From Aeromicrobium sp. Root344 (GTDB taxonomy: Bacteria > Actinomycetota > Actinomycetes > Propionibacteriales > Nocardioidaceae): a DNA stretch of 64,000 bases. The number at the start of each line of letters is the position of its first letter. Positions within the stretch are counted from its first letter, which is position 1. The stretch covers positions 1,090,474 through 1,154,473 of the forward strand of contig NZ_LMDH01000001.1 in the NCBI RefSeq assembly GCF_001425755.1, read 5' to 3'. This document shows, piece by piece, positions 873 to 10,261 of this stretch. The notes under the pieces are model-generated. The model ran no database searches. It saw only the letters and a program-made list of their open reading frames with translations, and was not told the DNA's origin. The position numbers were made by a program, and so were the translations under genes.

Positions 873-2198
873 CTACTCGGTACGCAGGTTGAGCGGCGAA
901 GCAGCCCGGCGGCTCCATGGCCGGACCGCCCGAACCGAGAGCACGGCTGCCAACCAGACCAGCCCGACCGTGACACTGGGGCCGAGGACAAGGGCGAGCA
1001 GCAGCTCTGCCAGCGGGTCGCCGGTGAGCAGCGGCATCGGCACAGCCCCGAGTATCGAGCCCCCTGCTGCCAACGGAAGGGCGACCAACGTGATCTCGCG
1101 CCTCGAAGCCGCCTCGAGCTCGGAGTCGAGCATTCCGGTCGCGGCAAGGAACGCCACCTCGCGCCGGCGGTCGAGCAGGGACTCGACGGAGTGCACGGCC
1201 ATGGACCCTGCGGCGACGAGCAGTCCGACCAGCAGGGCGATCGCCACGAGGGTGGCGCCCGCGAGGTAGGAGGAGTCCTCGTTGCCCCACACGTCGAGCA
1301 CGAAGCTGACAACACCCCCGCTGACGAGCGAGATTCCTCCGATCGCGGCGGCCGCCCGGCCGGCGGCCCGGGGATCGGCCATGATGCGCTGGGCGGCGAT
1401 CAAGGCAGTGGGGCTCGCCGTGCGGCGCTGCAGGCGCCGCGCCATCCTGTACGCCACCCACGGCGCCAGCAGCACGAGGGCGACGATCACGAGCGCGATC
1501 ACGACGAACGCCACGAAGTCGGTGCCGTGGTCGGTGCTGAGGGCCGTGGGGATCAGGAGAACGGCCAGTGCCAGGAGGGCCAGCCCCCAGGGCCGCGGAG
1601 CCGGTTGCCGCTGACGGCGGGTGACTCCGAAGGGCGACTCGACCACCGCGCGGGAGGCATGCCACCCGACGTACGTCCCGACGACCGCGACGGCAACCAC
1701 GACCACGACGGTCTGCCACGCGTTCGGCCCGGACACCGTGGGGACGATCGCGTAGTTGGATCCGCCGGGCCAGCTGCTGTCGTCCTGCCGGCCGCCGAGC
1801 AACTCACGCAGCAGCGCGAAGACACCCGTGCCGAGTGCCGCGCCCACCGTCACCGGGATGCCCACCTCGATGGCGCCGAGGCGGCGCACCTCGGACGTCG
1901 TCGCGCCAGCCACCCGCAACGCAGCGAGCCGCCGATCACGGTTGGCCGTGCCCAGGCGCACGGCCTGGTCCAGCAGCAGGAGCGGCGGGAGGGTCAGCAG
2001 CACCACCGCGAAGATCACGCCGCCCCGCGTGCTCCCATCGCGCACGAACGAGGCAAGCTGCTCGTCGAAGTCATCGCTGAGCACCAGCAGGGCCACGGCG
2101 ACGAGCAACAGCCCTGAGACGACCGCCGTGCACCCGGCGAGCAGCAGGGACCGGGCCCAACCGCCGGCGCGAGCGAGAGTCCATGCGAGGGAGAACAT
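873..2198 (-). CDS. ABC transporter permease, FtsX/MacB-like
   Basis: A 441-residue membrane protein. It has an N-terminal helix (about 15-38), a cytoplasmic segment with a DRRLAALRVAGATTSEVRRL motif like the FtsX-family coupling region, and further groups of helices around 98-120, 160-180 and 205-250. A second FtsX-like half (about 290-430) has the repeated DRRREVAFLAATGMLDSELE motif. Two such halves in one chain are typical of exporter permeases acting on lipids, peptides or drugs. The ATG overlaps the stop of the upstream ATPase gene as TGATG, so the pair is translationally coupled. The substrate is unknown. Confidence 0.85.
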   Translation of the reverse strand: MFSLAWTLARAGGWARSLLLAGCTAVVSGLLLVAVALLVLSDDFDEQLASFVRDGSTRGGVIFAVVLLTLPPLLLLDQAVRLGTANRDRRLAALRVAGATTSEVRRLGAIEVGIPVTVGAALGTGVFALLRELLGGRQDDSSWPGGSNYAIVPTVSGPNAWQTVVVVVAVAVVGTYVGWHASRAVVESPFGVTRRQRQPAPRPWGLALLALAVLLIPTALSTDHGTDFVAFVVIALVIVALVLLAPWVAYRMARRLQRRTASPTALIAAQRIMADPRAAGRAAAAIGGISLVSGGVVSFVLDVWGNEDSSYLAGATLVAIALLVGLLVAAGSMAVHSVESLLDRRREVAFLAATGMLDSELEAASRREITLVALPLAAGGSILGAVPMPLLTGDPLAELLLALVLGPSVTVGLVWLAAVLSVRAVRPWSRRAASPLNLRTE

Positions 2199-2896
2199 CA
2201 GACGTCCACGCGCTGCTCGTTGCAGCCGTCGCGCAGCACGATCTCACGGTCGGCCGAGGCGGCGACCCGATTGTCGTGCGTCACCAGGACCAGACTCGCC
2301 GCCGTCTCCCGAGCGACGTCCAGCAGGACCTGGAGCACCCGTTCACCGTTCACGGTGTCGAGCGCGCCGGTCGGCTCGTCGGCGAAGATGACCCTCGGTC
2401 CGGAGACCAACGCTCGCGCGATCGCGACGCGTTGGGACTCGCCGCCCGACATCTCACCGGGGCGGGCATCCGCCAGCTCGTCCGCGTCGAGGCGTTCGAG
2501 CCAGCTGCGGGCGGCGGCGAACGATGCCGCCTTGTCATGACGGTCGAGGAGCAGCGGCAGGGCGACGTTCTGGGCCGCAGTGAGCTCGGGAACGAGCTGC
2601 CCGAACTGCAGCACGAGACCGAAGTCGCGACGTCTCAGTCGGGAACGCTCAGCCTCGCCGAGGTCGTCGAGGAGCTGCCCGTCGTACGTCACGCGACCGG
2701 ACTCGGGCCTCAGCACTCCCGCGGCACACAGCAGCAGCGTCGACTTCCCACTGCCCGAGGGCCCGGTGATCGCCACGATCTCACCAGCCGCCACCGACAT
2801 TGACGCTCCCTGCAGGGCGTCGGTGCGGCCGAAGGACTTCCGGATGGCCTGGGCATCCAGCAGCGCCGCACTCCCTGATCGCTCGCTGAGGCTCAT
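2198..2896 (-). CDS. ABC transporter ATP-binding protein (MacB/LolD-like)
   Basis: A 232-residue ATPase with Walker A GPSGSGKST (residues 45-53), a Q-loop near LVLQFGQLVPELTA (about 95-107), the signature MSGGESQR (about 149-156) and Walker B VIFADEPTGALD (about 169-180). The DEPTGALD form is typical of the MacB/LolD/FtsE group, which pairs with FtsX-type permeases like the next gene. The start overlaps the stop of the upstream PadR gene by ATGA. It energises the permease at 873-2198 on the cytoplasmic face. Confidence 0.93.
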   Translation of the reverse strand: MSLSERSGSAALLDAQAIRKSFGRTDALQGASMSVAAGEIVAITGPSGSGKSTLLLCAAGVLRPESGRVTYDGQLLDDLGEAERSRLRRRDFGLVLQFGQLVPELTAAQNVALPLLLDRHDKAASFAAARSWLERLDADELADARPGEMSGGESQRVAIARALVSGPRVIFADEPTGALDTVNGERVLQVLLDVARETAASLVLVTHDNRVAASADREIVLRDGCNEQRVDV

Positions 2897-3417
2897 GCGC
2901 TTCGTGTCCTGTCTGCTGCGGCACGCTCAGCCGCTGTCTCAAGCCAGCGGAGGTCGGCGTCCAGGTGGGAGATGGTGTGGTCGATCGCGATGCTGACCGC
3001 GGCGCTGGGGGCCTCAGCCCGAGCCGCGACGAGGTCGCGCATCACCGCGAGATGGGTGATCCGCTGCCGCTGCAGGAACGCCGTGGCATCGGAACCCCTC
3101 AGCAAGGAGGTGACGGTCTTGCGCACCAGCTCGTCCGCCGCGTAGGGCCCTGCGGACTCCGTGGCCCCGAGCCAGGCACGAAGGGACTCGACCCCGGCTG
3201 GCGTGATGGCGTAGGTGGTGCGCTCGGGGCCGCCCTCCTGGTGGGTCTCGGCAACCTCGACAAGACCGTCCTTGGCGAGCTTGGCGAGAGCGGCGTAGAC
3301 CTGGCCGTACGCCAGAGGCTTGGCGCTCGGGAACCGCTCGTCGTGGATCCGCTTCACGTCATATCCGTGGGCCGGCCTCCGCTCGAGGATGCCCAGCAAC
3401 ACGTGTCCGATAGCCAT
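2893..3417 (-). CDS. PadR-family transcriptional repressor
   Basis: A 174-residue PadR regulator. The winged helix is at the N-terminus (ILERRPAHGYDVKRIHDERF, then YAALAKLAKDGLVE) and the C-terminal helical dimerisation part is about residues 95-170. I chose ATG 3417 rather than the in-frame start at 3438. On the minus strand TATAGT sits 7 bases before 3417, which would give a leaderless transcript and leave the longer start upstream of the +1. It heads the padR-ATPase-permease operon and probably represses it until an inducer, perhaps the exported compound, binds. Confidence 0.85.
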   Translation of the reverse strand: MAIGHVLLGILERRPAHGYDVKRIHDERFPSAKPLAYGQVYAALAKLAKDGLVEVAETHQEGGPERTTYAITPAGVESLRAWLGATESAGPYAADELVRKTVTSLLRGSDATAFLQRQRITHLAVMRDLVAARAEAPSAAVSIAIDHTISHLDADLRWLETAAERAAADRTRSA

Positions 3418-3456
3418 GCGGCCGACTATACACAACATGAATACTCGCGGTGCGAA

Positions 3457-3471
3457 TCTGCTCAGAGCAGA
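3457..3471. promoter_or_regulatory. Palindromic operator TCTGCT-N3-AGCAGA
   Basis: A perfect 6-bp inverted repeat with a 3-base centre (CAG) lies between the divergent PadR and XRE genes. A similar box (6049-6063) precedes the clpP pair. It resembles the PopR box of Streptomyces as I recall it (TTCTGCC-N3-GGCAGAA). Assignment to the XRE protein is inference. Confidence 0.5.
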
Positions 3472-3510: not shown

Positions 3511-3846
3511 ATGACCGAGATCGTCCGCCTGCACGCCGTCCCGAACCACCGCGTCATGGATCCGGAGCCGCTCTGGCGAGAGGTCCTGGGCCAGCGGCTC
3601 CGCGCCCTGCGAGCCCGCAGGGGCGAGACGCTCACCGAGACGGCCGAACGTGCCGGCATCTCGCCGCAGTACCTCTCCGAGATCGAGCGCGGGCTCAAGG
3701 ATCCGTCCAGCGAGGTCCTCGCCGCCGTCGCCGGTGCGCTCGGTGCAACCTTGATCGACCTGACGTCCCAGGTCACCGGCGACCTGCGCTCGTACGCGTT
3801 CGGGGTCCCGCAGGTCTCCAACCAGGCGCTCCTGCTCGCTGCCTAG
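3511..3846 (+). CDS. XRE-family regulator, ClgR/PopR-like
   Basis: A 111-residue protein with one helix-turn-helix domain at about residues 25-82: GQRLRALRARRGETLTETAERAGISPQYLSEIERGLKDPSSEVLAAVAGALG. The YLSEIERG...SSEVL pattern is that of the ClgR/PopR regulators, which control clp protease genes in actinobacteria. A tandem clpP pair lies less than 1 kb away and both loci carry a related palindrome, which supports a PopR-like role. TAGGCT ends 6 bases before the ATG, so the mRNA is probably leaderless. Its stop overlaps that of the convergent MarR gene by 4 bases. The family is certain; the target is inference. Confidence 0.8.
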   Translation: MTEIVRLHAVPNHRVMDPEPLWREVLGQRLRALRARRGETLTETAERAGISPQYLSEIERGLKDPSSEVLAAVAGALGATLIDLTSQVTGDLRSYAFGVPQVSNQALLLAA

Positions 3847-4341: not shown

Positions 4342-4785
4342 ATGACAATCATCAACGAGATGTCCTTCCTCGTCGGGACGGCGAGCGGCCCGGAGACCGT
4401 CGCGGCTTCCACGTGGAGCCCCGCCAAGCGCGGCCGCAGCACGGTCACCGCGACTGCCGAGCTCGATGACGGCGTGCTCGTGCAGCGCGTCGACGACGAG
4501 TTCGACGACGGATCGCACTTCGCCGGACTCAACGTGTTCACGCTGGACCCTGAGACCGCGGAGATCCTCTGCTACGGCTTCGACACGTACGGCTTTCCCC
4601 CGGACCCACCTGGCCGTGGCTCTTGGCAGGACGGCGAGCTCGTGCTGGAACGCACCACCCCGCGGGGTTCCGCACGCATCGTCTTCGCCCCGACAGCGAC
4701 CGGCTACACGTGGCGCAAGGACTTCCGGCCCGGCGACGCGCACGAGTGGCAGCCCGTGGCGACCGCGGACCTCCAGCGCACCTAG
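4342..4785 (+). CDS. Conserved protein of unknown function under MarR control
   Basis: A 147-residue soluble protein rich in predicted beta strands ([28 protein letters not shown] alternation, then [22 protein letters not shown] and [18 protein letters not shown]). This recalls small DUF1579-like or lipocalin-like beta-barrel proteins. I chose ATG 4342 because AAGGAAT precedes it by about 7 bases; the TTG at 4318 lies within the presumed MarR operator. No signal peptide or catalytic motif is seen. Being divergent from the MarR gene with a shared operator suggests induction by the MarR ligand. The function is not recognised. Confidence 0.6.
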
Positions 4786-5384
4786 GCGGCCACAGGCGTA
4801 CGACGCTGCAGCACCTCGTCCGCCAACCCGTACGCGATCGCGGCGTCGGCGGCGAACACCCGGTCCCGGTCGGTGTCGGCCCGCAGCGCGTCGACGGTCT
4901 GCCCCGTATGCGTCGACAGGATCGACTCGATCGCGGCACGGATGCGTACGACCTCGTCGGCCTGCAGGATCAGGTCGGGGATCGCGCCGCGGCCCTGGAC
5001 CGCCGGCTGGTGCAGCACGACCCGGCTGTGCGGCAGCACCGAGCGCCGGCCCGGCTCGCCGGCGGCAAGCAGCACTGCACCCGCTGCGATCGCCTGGCCC
5101 ACGCACGTCGTGGCGACCGGCGCCTGGATGAACTGCATCGTGTCGTAGATCGCCAGCATCGCCGTCTCGTCGCCACCCTCGCAGTTGATGTAGAGGTTGA
5201 TCTCCTGCCCGGGACCGTCGGCCTCGAGGTGCAGGAGCTGGGCGATCAACGCGTTGGCGACCCCGGAGTCGATCCCGGTGCCGAGATAGATGATGCGCTC
5301 GGCCAGCAGGTGCGAGTAGACGTCCATGATCCGCTCCCCTCGCGGGTGCTGGGCGATGACATTGGGGATCGTGTACGAGCTCAT
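4782..5384 (-). CDS. ClpP-like protein lacking the catalytic serine
   Basis: A 200-residue ClpP-fold protein, downstream partner of a normal-looking clpP (ATGA overlap). The fold motifs are present: [48 protein letters not shown] and [20 protein letters not shown]. The nucleophile block, normally GQAASMGA, reads GQAIAAGA here. On the minus strand the codons are GGC CAG GCG ATC GCA GCG GGT GCA, so Ser is replaced by Ala (GCA). The usual GGS/SPGG loop is also altered to CEGGD. The triad His (VVLHQP) and Asp (DRDR) remain. It should be proteolytically inactive and act as a structural or regulatory subunit, comparable in principle to ClpR. I start at ATG 5384; the longer frame to 5756 is a shadow of the upstream clpP. 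Confidence 0.88.
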
Positions 5385-5992
5385 GCGTTCACTCCCATCG
5401 CGAGGTGCTTCTTGGTCGGCATGACCTGCTCGAAGTTGTCGACGATCGCGTCGACGAAGCCGTAGTCGACGGCCTCCTGGGCGGTGTACCACCGATCCCG
5501 GAGCGAGTCCTCGAAGATCCGCTCGACGGGCTGCCCGGTGTCGTCGGCGATGATCCCGAGCACCGTGTCGCGGGTGTAGCGCAGGTCCTCGGCCTGCAGC
5601 TCGACGTCGACCGCGGATCCGCCGATGCCGGCCGACCCCTGGTGCATGAGGATCCGGGAGTGCGGCAGGGCGTACCGCTTGCCCTTGGTGCCCGACGACA
5701 GCAGGAACTGTCCGGCGCTGCAGGCGAGACCCAGCGCGAGGGTCGCGACGTCGCACGGGACGAGCCGCATCACGTCGCGGATCGCCAGCATCGACGGCAC
5801 CGAGCCGCCCGGCGAGTGGATCCAGAGCACCGCGTCGGCGACCGGATCCTCTGCCGCCAGCGTCAGCAACTGGGTCGCCAGCAGCGTGCCGTTGTCGTCG
5901 TCGAGGGGTCCGTCGAGCACGAGGACGCGCCGGTGCAGAAGCTGCTGGCGCATCTGCCCGGAGAACAGGGTGGTCTTGTCGTTGTCAGCCAT
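5381..5992 (-). CDS. clpP: ATP-dependent Clp protease proteolytic subunit (active-site intact)
   Basis: A 203-residue ClpP. The nucleophile block is [17 protein letters not shown] with Ser in the usual position, the His block is [12 protein letters not shown] and the Asp block is [21 protein letters not shown], so the catalytic triad is complete. [18 protein letters not shown] matches the normal SPGGS loop. It is the first gene of a two-gene operon with a serine-less paralogue, so the tetradecamer may be mixed, with this subunit supplying activity. ATG 5992 follows GGAGGT closely. A palindrome at 6049-6063, about 57 bases upstream, is a plausible activator site. This looks like an accessory clpP pair rather than the main clpP1P2 next to clpX/tig; that is inference from context. 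Confidence 0.92.
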
Positions 5993-6048
5993 ACCTCCAT
6001 CGTGCGTACGTCTGACGCTGCGCAGAAGGCCTTGCTGCTGCAGGCGGA

Positions 6049-6063
6049 TCAGCCCAGAGCAGA
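6049..6063. promoter_or_regulatory. Putative PopR-like box upstream of the clpP pair
   Basis: TCAGCC-CAG-AGCAGA. Its right half, CAGAGCAGA, is identical to that of the palindrome at 3457-3471 upstream of the XRE regulator gene; the left half is degenerate. It lies 57 bases upstream of the clpP start codon. Confidence 0.4.
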
Positions 6064-6822
6064 TCAGGGCGCGGCGATGAACCCGCGGTCGCTGAGCAGC
6101 GGCACCGTCGTGCTCGTGCCGACCTCGGCGGCCACGGCCACGTCCTCGGCGAAGCCGGCGTCGACGAGCTCCCGGCCGCTGGCGCACGCCATGAGGTGCG
6201 ACTCCTCGCGGCCGGCGATCAGCCGGTAGGCGTCTGCGGCCATCGCGGCTTCTGGCGACAACCCCGGCCAGTCGTGGTCCTCGAGGGCGGCGAGCACCGC
6301 ACCGGCGCCCCAGAGGTCTTCGATGGCCGGGCGCAGCGAGCCGTCGGGCCATCGCTCGCCGGCGGCCACGACCGCGATCGAGGCGCTCTCGGCGTCGTGC
6401 TCGCGCGCGATCCAGTCGGCAACAGCGCGGGCGTTGCGCAACGACGCGCCCACCACGGTCGTGACGGCCGACGCGAGCTGCACCGAGATCGCCGAACCGT
6501 TGGGCGACGGGAGGACGAGCCTCTCCATCGGAGCAGCAGCGCGTACGCTCACCGGCGACAGGCTCACCTCTCCGGGGCCGGCGGCACCCCGCCCGAGGGC
6601 CAGGACCGCTCGATGCTGGGCGGCGTAGGTCGGCGCATCCTCGGCCTCCCACGGATAGGGCAGCACGACGATGCCGAGGTCGGCGGCGACGCTGAGCGAG
6701 GTCGAGAACGACAGCACGTCGACCACGACAGCCACGTCCGCGCCCTCGGCGATCGCTGCGCCGCCGACGGCGCCCCAGTCGAACCTGACCCCGTGTGCGG
6801 CCTGGTGCAGGACAGAGTTCAC
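6064..6822 (-). CDS. 2-phosphosulfolactate phosphatase family protein (ComB-like)
   Basis: A 252-residue protein carrying the ComB family landmarks in order: VDVLSFSTSLSVA (about 34-47, with the metal-binding Asp), LVLPSPNGSAIS (about 102-113), VVGASLRNARAVADWI and VVAAGERWPDGSLRPAIEDLWGAGAVL (about 150-180). ComB hydrolyses 2-phosphosulfolactate with Mg2+ in coenzyme M synthesis. In actinobacteria, which make no coenzyme M, the homologues have no proven substrate, so a general phosphatase role is the safe reading. It is downstream of the PAP2 gene by only 13 bases and probably co-transcribed with it. Confidence 0.82.
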   Translation of the reverse strand: MNSVLHQAAHGVRFDWGAVGGAAIAEGADVAVVVDVLSFSTSLSVAADLGIVVLPYPWEAEDAPTYAAQHRAVLALGRGAAGPGEVSLSPVSVRAAAPMERLVLPSPNGSAISVQLASAVTTVVGASLRNARAVADWIAREHDAESASIAVVAAGERWPDGSLRPAIEDLWGAGAVLAALEDHDWPGLSPEAAMAADAYRLIAGREESHLMACASGRELVDAGFAEDVAVAAEVGTSTTVPLLSDRGFIAAP

Positions 6823-8675: not shown

Positions 8676-10163
8676 CTAGGTCGGGCGTCCCCAGCCGGCG
8701 AGGCGGCCGTGGCGGCCGACGGCACGCAAGCGGTCCTCCGCCCGCTCCCGCACGGCCCGGTCGGCGACGATCAGCAGGTCGTCGTGGATCGCGATGCGAT
8801 CGGTGCGGTGGGGCACGAACGTCGTACCGTCGCGGACGACCAGCGACACGGACGCACCGATCGGCAGCCGCAGCTCGCCGACCTCGACGCCCGCGAGCCG
8901 GGATCCCTTGGGCACGTGGATCTGCAGCAGGTCGGCAGACACCCGTTCGAGCGGCGCGGCCTCGACCTCGACGTCACGCACCTCGTCGCTCAGCACGCCG
9001 CACCAGGCCGCGAGGCGGGACAGCGGCGCCGCCTGGACCAGGGTGTAGATGACGACGGCCACGAAGACGACGTTGAAGAGATCGCGCGAGCCCGGCACGT
9101 CAGCGGCCAGCGGGATCGTGGCGAGCACGATCGGCACCGCCCCGCGGAGTCCGGCCCACCCGACGAACAGCTGTTCGCGCAGGCCGCGCTTGAACCAGAC
9201 GGCGCAGACGACGACCGACAATGGACGGGCCACGAAGGTGAGGATCGCACCGGCGGCGAGACCGTGCCAGACGTGCCACCAGCGCAGCTCGTCGGGGCTG
9301 GCGAGCAGGCCGAGCATCACGAACAGGCCGATCTGGGCGAGCCAGCCGATGCCCTCGACGAACGACCGGGTCGCCACGCGGTGCGGCAGCTCGGTGTTGC
9401 CGAGCACGAGCGCCGCGACGTAGACGGCCGCGAACCCACTGGCGTGGACGTACGCCGCGGAGCCGTACGCGAACACCGCGATCGCGAACACGACGAGGGG
9501 GTAGAGGCCTGAGGCCGGCAGGGCGACACGGCGCAGGCCGTACGCACCGATCCACCCGATGGCGAAGCCGATGGCACCGCCGGCGACGAGCTCGAACACG
9601 ATCAGGCCGATGAGTGCCCAGATGCCGTGGTCGAGCGCGTCCCCGGCGCTGATCGCCACGACGAGCACGACGATCGGGGCGTCGTTGAGGCCGGACTCGG
9701 CCTCGAGGGTTCCGGTCACGGAGTGGCGCAGCGGCACCGCGCGCAGCACCGAGAAGACCGCTGCCGCGTCGGTCGGCGTCAGGACGGCGGCGAGCAGGAT
9801 CGCGAGCTCCCAGGGCAGGTCGAGCAGGTAGTGCCCGCCGGTCGCGACCACCGTGACGCTGACGACCGAACCGAGGGTCGCCAGCAGCAGTCCGTAGCCG
9901 AGGTTGGGCCTGACGTGCTCCCACTTGGTCGTCAGACCACCCTCGGCGAGGATCAGGACGAGGCCACCGAACCCGAGCGCGTGGGCGAGGTCGGCGTCGG
10001 CGAACTCGATGCCGAGCCCGGAGCTGCCGAGGATCAGGCCGAGGAAGAGGTAGACGAGCAGCGAGGGGAGGCCCGCCGTGACCGAGATGCGTACGGCGAG
10101 AACTGCCAGCACGAGGACGCCGGAGCCGATCAGGAGGAACTGGTCGAGCTGGTCGGCATCCAC
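8676..10163 (-). CDS. Potassium/proton (or sodium/proton) antiporter with RCK_C domain, NhaP2-like
   Basis: A 495-residue CPA-family antiporter with about 12 hydrophobic segments (residues 5-385) and typical blocks PSLLVYLFLGLILGSSGLG, AVLTPTDAAAVFSVLR (PTDxAA ion-binding region) and ESGLNDAPIVVLVVAIS (the NDxP motif with the essential Asp). A cytoplasmic RCK_C/TrkA-C domain follows at about 405-480 (RVSADLLQIHVPKGSRLAGVEVGELRLP...IHDDLLIVAD). This layout matches NhaP2/CvrA potassium/proton exchangers. I start at GTG 10163, preceded by GGGAGGAG at proper spacing, rather than the frame's first ATG at 10250. Confidence 0.9.
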   Translation of the reverse strand: MDADQLDQFLLIGSGVLVLAVLAVRISVTAGLPSLLVYLFLGLILGSSGLGIEFADADLAHALGFGGLVLILAEGGLTTKWEHVRPNLGYGLLLATLGSVVSVTVVATGGHYLLDLPWELAILLAAVLTPTDAAAVFSVLRAVPLRHSVTGTLEAESGLNDAPIVVLVVAISAGDALDHGIWALIGLIVFELVAGGAIGFAIGWIGAYGLRRVALPASGLYPLVVFAIAVFAYGSAAYVHASGFAAVYVAALVLGNTELPHRVATRSFVEGIGWLAQIGLFVMLGLLASPDELRWWHVWHGLAAGAILTFVARPLSVVVCAVWFKRGLREQLFVGWAGLRGAVPIVLATIPLAADVPGSRDLFNVVFVAVVIYTLVQAAPLSRLAAWCGVLSDEVRDVEVEAAPLERVSADLLQIHVPKGSRLAGVEVGELRLPIGASVSLVVRDGTTFVPHRTDRIAIHDDLLIVADRAVRERAEDRLRAVGRHGRLAGWGRPT

Positions 10164-10261
10164 GAAGGCTCCTCCCACGGTGTCGACGGACCCTGATTCT
10201 ATCGGTCGTCGAGCGTGCGCCTGACCGTATGCGTACGATGCCGACGGCACAGGAGGCTGGC

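Follow-up and report, generated by a model that had tools for sequence, protein, structure and literature searches.

The window, by which we mean the whole 64,000-nt stretch of the Aeromicrobium sp. Root344 genome under study, carries a tandem pair of clpP genes on its minus strand. The upstream gene (5381..5992) encodes a P1-like, ClpP3-type subunit of 203 aa and the downstream gene (4782..5384) a P2-like, ClpP4-type subunit of 200 aa; the stop codon of the first and the start codon of the second share an ATGA overlap (5381..5384, minus strand). Both proteins match the Pfam family CLP_protease (E-values of 2.2e-54 and 6.5e-63, respectively). The ClpP3-type subunit retains Ser92, His117, and Asp166, i.e., the triad that marks an active ClpP of peptidase family S14, which is incomplete in the ClpP4-type subunit. 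Direct reading of the codons in the nucleophile region of the latter, CAG GCG ATC GCA GCG, places a GCA codon (5085..5087, minus strand) and hence Ala100 at the position of the nucleophilic Ser. His125 within an LHQP motif and Asp174, the last D of ADTDRD and presumably the counterpart of E. coli Asp171, are kept. An earlier note on this DNA had described this pattern, a complete triad upstream and a downstream subunit without its Ser but with His and Asp, and its reading is correct down to the codons. Judged from its sequence, the ClpP4-type subunit is expected to be inactive. At the usual INSPGGS site it carries the loop INCEGGDET, in which CEGGD (5169..5183, minus strand) replaces SPGGS with both glycines retained.

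The pair could still be an ordinary active one if a nearby cysteine had taken over as nucleophile in the second subunit. Two residues come into question, Cys94, which is invariant in a 21-row alignment (A2), and Cys68 within the CEGGD loop. However, those rows of this alignment that are intact and bear Ser have Cys94 as well, other broken members (L077, L128, L134) carry Ser or Thr in place of Cys68, and neither Ser nor Thr adjoins Ala100. A substitute cysteine is thus unsupported, and we give this reading almost no credence.

The genome (3.87 Mb, single contig) contains four ClpP matches, namely the pair in the window and a second pair at 2808210-2809327, which represents an intact housekeeping set (locus L001) with clpX adjoining at 2809506; two ORFs with Clp_N domains are also present. 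The ClpP4-type subunit is 47% identical to ClpP2 and 42% to ClpP1 of its own genome. Its best matches among solved structures are ClpPs from other bacteria, and those of the ClpP3-type subunit include M. tuberculosis ClpP1 chains. Other genes on the minus strand of the window include a potassium/proton antiporter gene (8676-10250; NF003716, 594.7 bits, above cut-off) and, in a row at 873-3438, genes for a PadR-like regulator and an ABC transporter ATPase and a large ORF that matches no family.

A PopR-like regulator and predicted operator sites

A gene for a PopR/ClgR-like HTH regulator of 111 aa, which ends in the degron-like sequence ALLLAA, lies convergent with the clpP pair on the plus strand (3511..3846), and two other genes separate it from the pair. 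The protein scores 58.7 against the NCBIfam ClgR model, below the cut-off of 170, and a separate, better match to this model is found in the genome at 3779499. Over 121 columns it is 41% identical to the HTH regulator encoded directly downstream of the clpP pair of Streptomyces fungicidicus, where, in contrast to the window, no genes intervene. A PopR/ClgR-like gene accompanies 121 of 124 auxiliary loci with a length of 7 kb or more (auxiliary and housekeeping pairs are separated by the tree of second subunits described below), compared to 0/41 housekeeping loci. All 121 genes are on the strand opposite the pair, and 102 of them, unlike the one in the window, lie no more than 200 bp from its end. 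A C-terminal AA is found in 114 of the encoded proteins, versus 293/8952 ORFs at large.

Upstream of the pair, we searched for the PopR box as given in PMC9775585, leaving the GAA spacer open. A PopR-box-like tandem site matching 17/21 specified positions (6034..6063, minus strand) begins 71 bp before the start of the clpP3-type gene. A match this good (4 mismatches) arose in 3 of 2000 shuffles, which, here and for the palindrome below, swap segments with dinucleotides preserved. The three sister genomes have sites of 16, 17, and 16 matching positions in the same place, and the S. fungicidicus box matches at 21/21. With a threshold of at least 16/21, a box is found in 118/184 auxiliary loci (1/184 when shuffled) and in 1/65 housekeeping loci. 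The gene just upstream of the pair, at 6064-6822 on the minus strand, abuts this box with its end and resembles a 2-phosphosulfolactate phosphatase gene, all matches being below the curated cut-offs.

A perfect palindrome, TCTGCTCAGAGCAGA (3457..3471, plus strand), begins 54 bp before the start of the popR-like gene. It is the sole match of the genome to TCTGCYNNNRGCAGA; since this pattern was chosen after the site had been seen, its reversed control has three matches, and an equally good box turns up in 3.4% of local shuffles, the evidence lies in the place of the palindrome and not in its rarity. In the relatives, a box with at most two mismatches precedes popR in 36/121 cases compared to 3/121 shuffled sequences. 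The position of the palindrome suggests that the popR-like gene could be autoregulated.

In all these features, a tandem auxiliary pair in the same clade as the Streptomyces pair, an HTH activator with a C-terminal AA, and a predicted operator upstream, the locus resembles the Streptomyces PopR-clpP3-clpP4 system. This type of operon has already been described, as have PopR, the PopR box, and the degradation of PopR (PMC9765437, PMC12607617, and PMC9775585); in S. lividans, the activator PopR is reported to be degraded by ClpP1P2 and the pair to be expressed only upon ClpP1P2 failure (PMC9765437 and PMC12607617). A laboratory strain of S. lividans that lacks clpP1clpP2 is reportedly kept viable by clpP3clpP4. 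The window pair is one instance of this PopR-regulated clpP3-clpP4 type and not a lone oddity.

Triad loss is confined to the second subunit in the pairs surveyed

Pairs were collected at four taxonomic levels. Within the genus, the pair is present in 6/49 genomes (matches of at least 62% identity), a set that includes some incomplete genomes and two without any ClpP match. Matches were found in 133/294 genomes of the family (E 1e-60), in 158/394 of the class (E 1e-56, a looser cut that lets in some housekeeping copies), and in 18/296 of the phylum (E 1e-64). Loci were fetched for 70 of the 133 matches in the family and for no fewer than 90 of the 158 in the class. ClpP was found in 260 loci, of which 253 have a tandem pair on the fetched stretch and 251 are distinct; 7 loci without a tandem pair and 2 duplicates were left out at this stage. 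Six further loci were set aside as repeats (L002, L003, L004, L083, L085, and L105), and L267-L291 are later additions outside the count of 251. None of the 251 rows is more than 99.5% identical to another in both proteins. First and second subunits were assigned by their score against the window proteins, and the catalytic Asp was read as the final D of the xRxDTDRD motif.

A tree of the second subunits separates a housekeeping clade of 66 pairs from an auxiliary clade of 185; the ATGA overlap occurs in 143/185 auxiliary versus 20/66 housekeeping pairs. The Ser-His-Asp triad of the first subunit is intact in all 251 distinct pairs. In contrast, the triad of the second subunit is intact in 66/66 housekeeping but only 61/185 auxiliary pairs; the remaining 124/185 are broken, a proportion that does not represent a population frequency because auxiliary loci were picked for resembling the proteins of the window and the matches were fetched in part. 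The 124 include L136 and L144, where the Asp column is cut off yet the Ser is absent. Written in the order nucleophile, His, Asp, the broken states are AHD (58 pairs), GHD (14), SGD (11), WHT (8), WHD (7), SHN (5), EHH (4), EHN (3), ATQ, SHS, and GHE (2 each), and eight singles. Ser is replaced by Ala, Gly, Trp, Glu, or Phe, and elsewhere His or Asp is lost. Ala-bearing second subunits are found in Amycolatopsis, Kribbella, Nocardia, Nonomuraea, and Tsukamurella, Gly-bearing ones in Microbacterium and Agromyces, and in S. fungicidicus the His is changed to Gly. Thus, the auxiliary second subunit appears, from these alignments, to have been inactivated repeatedly by different mutations with its partner spared. 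In L153 and L156 (Corynebacterium kalidii and a Candidatus Corynebacterium), the whole triad is changed, with Ala, Thr, and Gln in place of Ser, His, and Asp, respectively.

Of seven stretches from outside the class, three, which belong to other classes of the phylum, carry both the pair and a PopR-like gene. In each of these, the first triad is intact and the second is broken, with Asp changed to Ala in L285 and L286 and Ser to Ala in L288. The other four (L287, L289, L290, and L291) encode an intact second-type subunit with no partner or regulator above the thresholds used.

Ala occupies the nucleophile position in four genomes, that of the window and those of its three nearest relatives at 96-97% identity, and is encoded by GCA, GCG, and GCC. 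Ala in four genomes, the differing codons, and the 58 distinct AHD pairs together rule out a sequencing error or a sporadic mutation. According to the earlier note, Ser in relatives of the same genus would have spoken against the finding. This is partly what we see, as the six pair-bearing genomes comprise four with Ala, one with Ser, and one with Gly; the Ser-bearing (L009) and Gly-bearing (L010) members group with sequences from other genera. The note had also taken the CEGGD loop as a sign of long-term specialization. The state is indeed old and not recent, given the number of broken pairs and the purifying selection described below, but the loop is no mark of inactivity by itself, because it occurs alongside Ser in two relatives, L009 and L048, and many relatives with a broken second subunit retain SPGGS.

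Number of losses and selection on the ClpP4-type gene

The number of events was estimated on trees from which the three triad columns had been removed. An IQ-TREE of 112 rows (104 auxiliary representatives and 8 housekeeping), obtained by a quick search and with support below 80 on 42 of 109 inner branches, requires by parsimony no fewer than 10 switches of state (intact to broken or back), of which 8 are losses and 2 regains if the root is intact. FastTree likewise yields 10 changes and its 29 bootstraps 8-10, with 6-8 losses in the loss-richest reconstructions and down to 3 in the loss-poorest. If regain is forbidden, 14-20 losses are needed. None of the losses affects the first subunit. The clades differ in the positions and residues lost, which favors separate losses. 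In L009 and L048 the Ser is encoded by TCC, and both sequences are nested within an Ala/Gly clade, which could reflect a regain of the nucleophile.

The inactivated gene is conserved as a protein. Among the window genome and its three closest relatives, omega is 0.012-0.054 for the ClpP4-type gene and 0.019-0.054 for its live partner, and the former values rule out a pseudogene. Median omega values of the second subunit, computed over non-independent pairs, are 0.144 for broken (649 pairs), 0.217 for intact auxiliary (140), and 0.189 for housekeeping genes (297).

Docking surface and a probable division of labor between the subunits

We compared the residues of the hydrophobic patch for ATPase docking as listed in PMC4416901. 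The equivalent of E. coli Y62 is Tyr in 124/124 broken second subunits, and the F82 equivalent is Phe in 60, Tyr in 37, and His in 27 of them. In the first subunits, the F82 equivalent is Leu in 139/185 cases and the Y62 equivalent is also aromatic in 160/185. The pocket of the second subunit is partly unlike that of housekeeping ClpP2, e.g., 98/124 broken subunits have His where E. coli has L48. The N-terminal stretch is conserved in the second subunit, with a mean entropy of 1.01 bits (housekeeping 1.05), and variable in the first, with 2.36 bits (housekeeping 1.72). The acidic residue equivalent to E. coli E169, which we take to be the inter-ring sensor, is present in 179/185 second subunits but only 26/185 first subunits, versus 65/66 housekeeping first subunits. 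Residue 164 of the window ClpP3-type subunit corresponds to this sensor position. Loss of the acid in the first subunit is also seen in many pairs with both triads intact, and the Streptomyces clade retains both acids in 11/11 pairs, so that the asymmetry is no general precondition of catalytic loss.

A division of labor with catalysis by ClpP1 and ATPase docking by ClpP2 has been described for actinobacterial ClpP1P2 (PMC4416901 and PMC9765437). In S. hawaiiensis, ClpP1 combined with ClpP2(S131A) is fully active and ClpP1(S113A) abolishes activity, and ClpX, ClpC1, and ClpC2 dock on ClpP2 only (PMC9765437). The natural Ser-to-Ala change in the window ClpP4-type subunit is the same as that in ClpP2(S131A). 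Together with the window's second subunit being closest to ClpP2 of its own genome, this precedent would assign the catalytic ring to the ClpP3-type and the dead docking ring to the ClpP4-type subunit. We therefore regard as quite probable an inducible PopR-clpP3-clpP4-type core in which the ClpP3-type ring is catalytic and the ClpP4-type ring is a pseudoprotease used for docking. The sequences, the triad loss, its conservation, and the association with regulator and operator are seen directly. By analogy with ClpP1P2 of Streptomyces and Mycobacterium, the housekeeping ClpP1P2 would degrade the PopR-like activator via its C-terminal AA tail and keep the pair off. Upon failure or saturation of ClpP1P2, the activator would build up and bind the box at 6034-6063, and probably also the palindrome before its own gene, so that the pair is switched on. 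The two subunits would then assemble as a hetero-tetradecamer, in which the ClpP3-type ring would do all peptide-bond cutting and the ClpP4-type ring, lacking a nucleophile and presumably catalytically dead, would have a structural and Clp-ATPase-docking role. A hetero-oligomer with a dead subunit, as predicted in the earlier note with either one dead ring or mixed subunits, is by this analogy the best reading of the pair.

Mixed rings would resemble cyanobacterial ClpP3/R, with dead and live subunits alternating within each heptamer and the dead ones relieving crowding or tuning the rate. The cyanobacterial core has such an arrangement and restoring the ClpR sites did not make it faster (PMC4673316), and the frequent gene overlap would favor matched subunit amounts. 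Against this stand the Listeria and Mycobacterium ClpP1P2 cores, which are built of separate homo-heptameric rings (same source), as well as the match of the first subunit to M. tuberculosis ClpP1 structures and the proximity of the second to ClpP2 of its own genome. We consider mixed rings unlikely. Even more improbable, in our view, is that the second subunit forms no protease of its own and inhibits or regulates the housekeeping ClpP1P2 by poisoning or titrating it. In S. hawaiiensis, ClpP-ADEP is known to disturb complexes of ADEP-activated ClpP1, indicating that cross-assembly between ClpP homologues occurs (PMC12607617). Against this reading, an intact partner is encoded in tandem in all 251 distinct pairs.

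A more serious contender is neutral decay. Catalysis by a ClpP2-type subunit would be unneeded and its triad free to drift, with the subunit kept for structure and docking and its inactivity bringing no benefit. This is compatible with the anatomy proposed above for a catalytic ClpP3-type and a docking ClpP4-type ring. The variety of substitutions, which affect each of the three triad positions, the full activity of Streptomyces ClpP1 with ClpP2(S131A) (PMC9765437), and the two Ser carriers within the dead clade are in line with drift. Conversely, given broken states persist over many genomes, as in the AHD and the 11 SGD pairs, the rest of the ClpP4-type protein is under purifying selection, and the triad of housekeeping ClpP2, although likewise reported to be dispensable in Streptomyces (PMC9765437), is intact throughout. 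We rate neutral decay at somewhat less than an even chance. As 61/185 auxiliary second subunits are intact and two Ser carriers lie within the Ala/Gly clade, the activity of the second subunit may be dispensable and not selected against.

A further-reaching proposal is that actinomycetes evolved ClpR-like pseudoproteases repeatedly (eight times on the best tree), always in the docking, ClpP4-type subunit of the PopR-controlled backup protease and, across the pairs examined, in neither its catalytic partner nor the housekeeping core. Since in most lineages the sensor acid is lost from the catalytic subunit and kept in the dead one, the two might exchange inter-ring signals with each other alone, as an obligate hetero-ring machine of one working and one dead ring. 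Given that both acids are present in the Streptomyces clade and that fewer losses suffice on some bootstrap trees, we put this forward tentatively, at somewhat less than an even chance.

Relation to known Clp systems

The earlier note had called the arrangement ClpR-like outside cyanobacteria and plastids. The ClpP4-type subunit matches ten NCBIfam models, none of them above cut-off; it reaches 153 bits against NF009204/PRK12552, which we take to be the cyanobacterial-type family model of ClpR, with a cut-off of 263. The family model thus does not place it in ClpR, and what stands of the comparison is that the subunit may work like ClpR. ClpR of cyanobacteria, plastids, and apicoplasts is a ClpP homologue without a working triad that forms a core with active ClpP (PMC7966870). 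The triad of the ClpP4-type subunit is lost in part only, with the nucleophile absent and His and Asp present, and unlike ClpR it belongs to an actinobacterial auxiliary branch with intact close relatives.

The S. fungicidicus pair falls into the auxiliary clade and is 61% identical to the window in the second subunit and 49% in the first (BLASTP). In contrast to the window, where Ser is Ala and His is kept, S. fungicidicus and ten other genomes of its clade have kept the Ser of the second subunit and have Gly at the catalytic His. The two-subunit core is shared with the actinobacterial housekeeping ClpP1P2 of Mycobacterium and Streptomyces, which differ from the auxiliary pairs in that both triads are intact in 66/66 cases and a PopR-like gene is absent from all 41 loci examined. 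Hetero-ClpP cores are also known from Listeria and Pseudomonas, whose ClpP1 carries Asn and Pro, respectively, at the Asp position (PMC9765437 and PMC12900304); these subunits keep the Ser nucleophile and some activity, whereas the second subunit in the window has no nucleophile. Functional parallels are Pseudomonas ClpP1 with its Ser-His-Pro triad (PMC12900304) and chloroplast CLPP3, whose active site is dispensable (PMC6508832). The operon type is already known; in the open-access literature searched, in which the primary PopR and clpP3 clpP4 papers (Viala 2000 and 2002) appear through citations, we found neither catalytic loss reported for ClpP4 of actinomycetes nor its recurrent one-sided form.

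Why Clp cores hold non-catalytic subunits has so far been argued mainly from cyanobacteria and plastids. The one-sided, repeated loss described here, together with Ala-, Gly-, and Ser-bearing relatives in one genus, makes the role of such subunits directly testable, and L009 and L048 versus Ala-bearing second subunits form a natural comparison pair. This raises the question of whether silencing of the docking ring affects the rate, processivity, or substrate choice of a backup protease. Moreover, because the ClpP4-type subunits of the S. fungicidicus clade lack the catalytic His, the ClpP3P4 core that is described in Streptomyces as a functional backup might use just one of its two subunit types for cutting.
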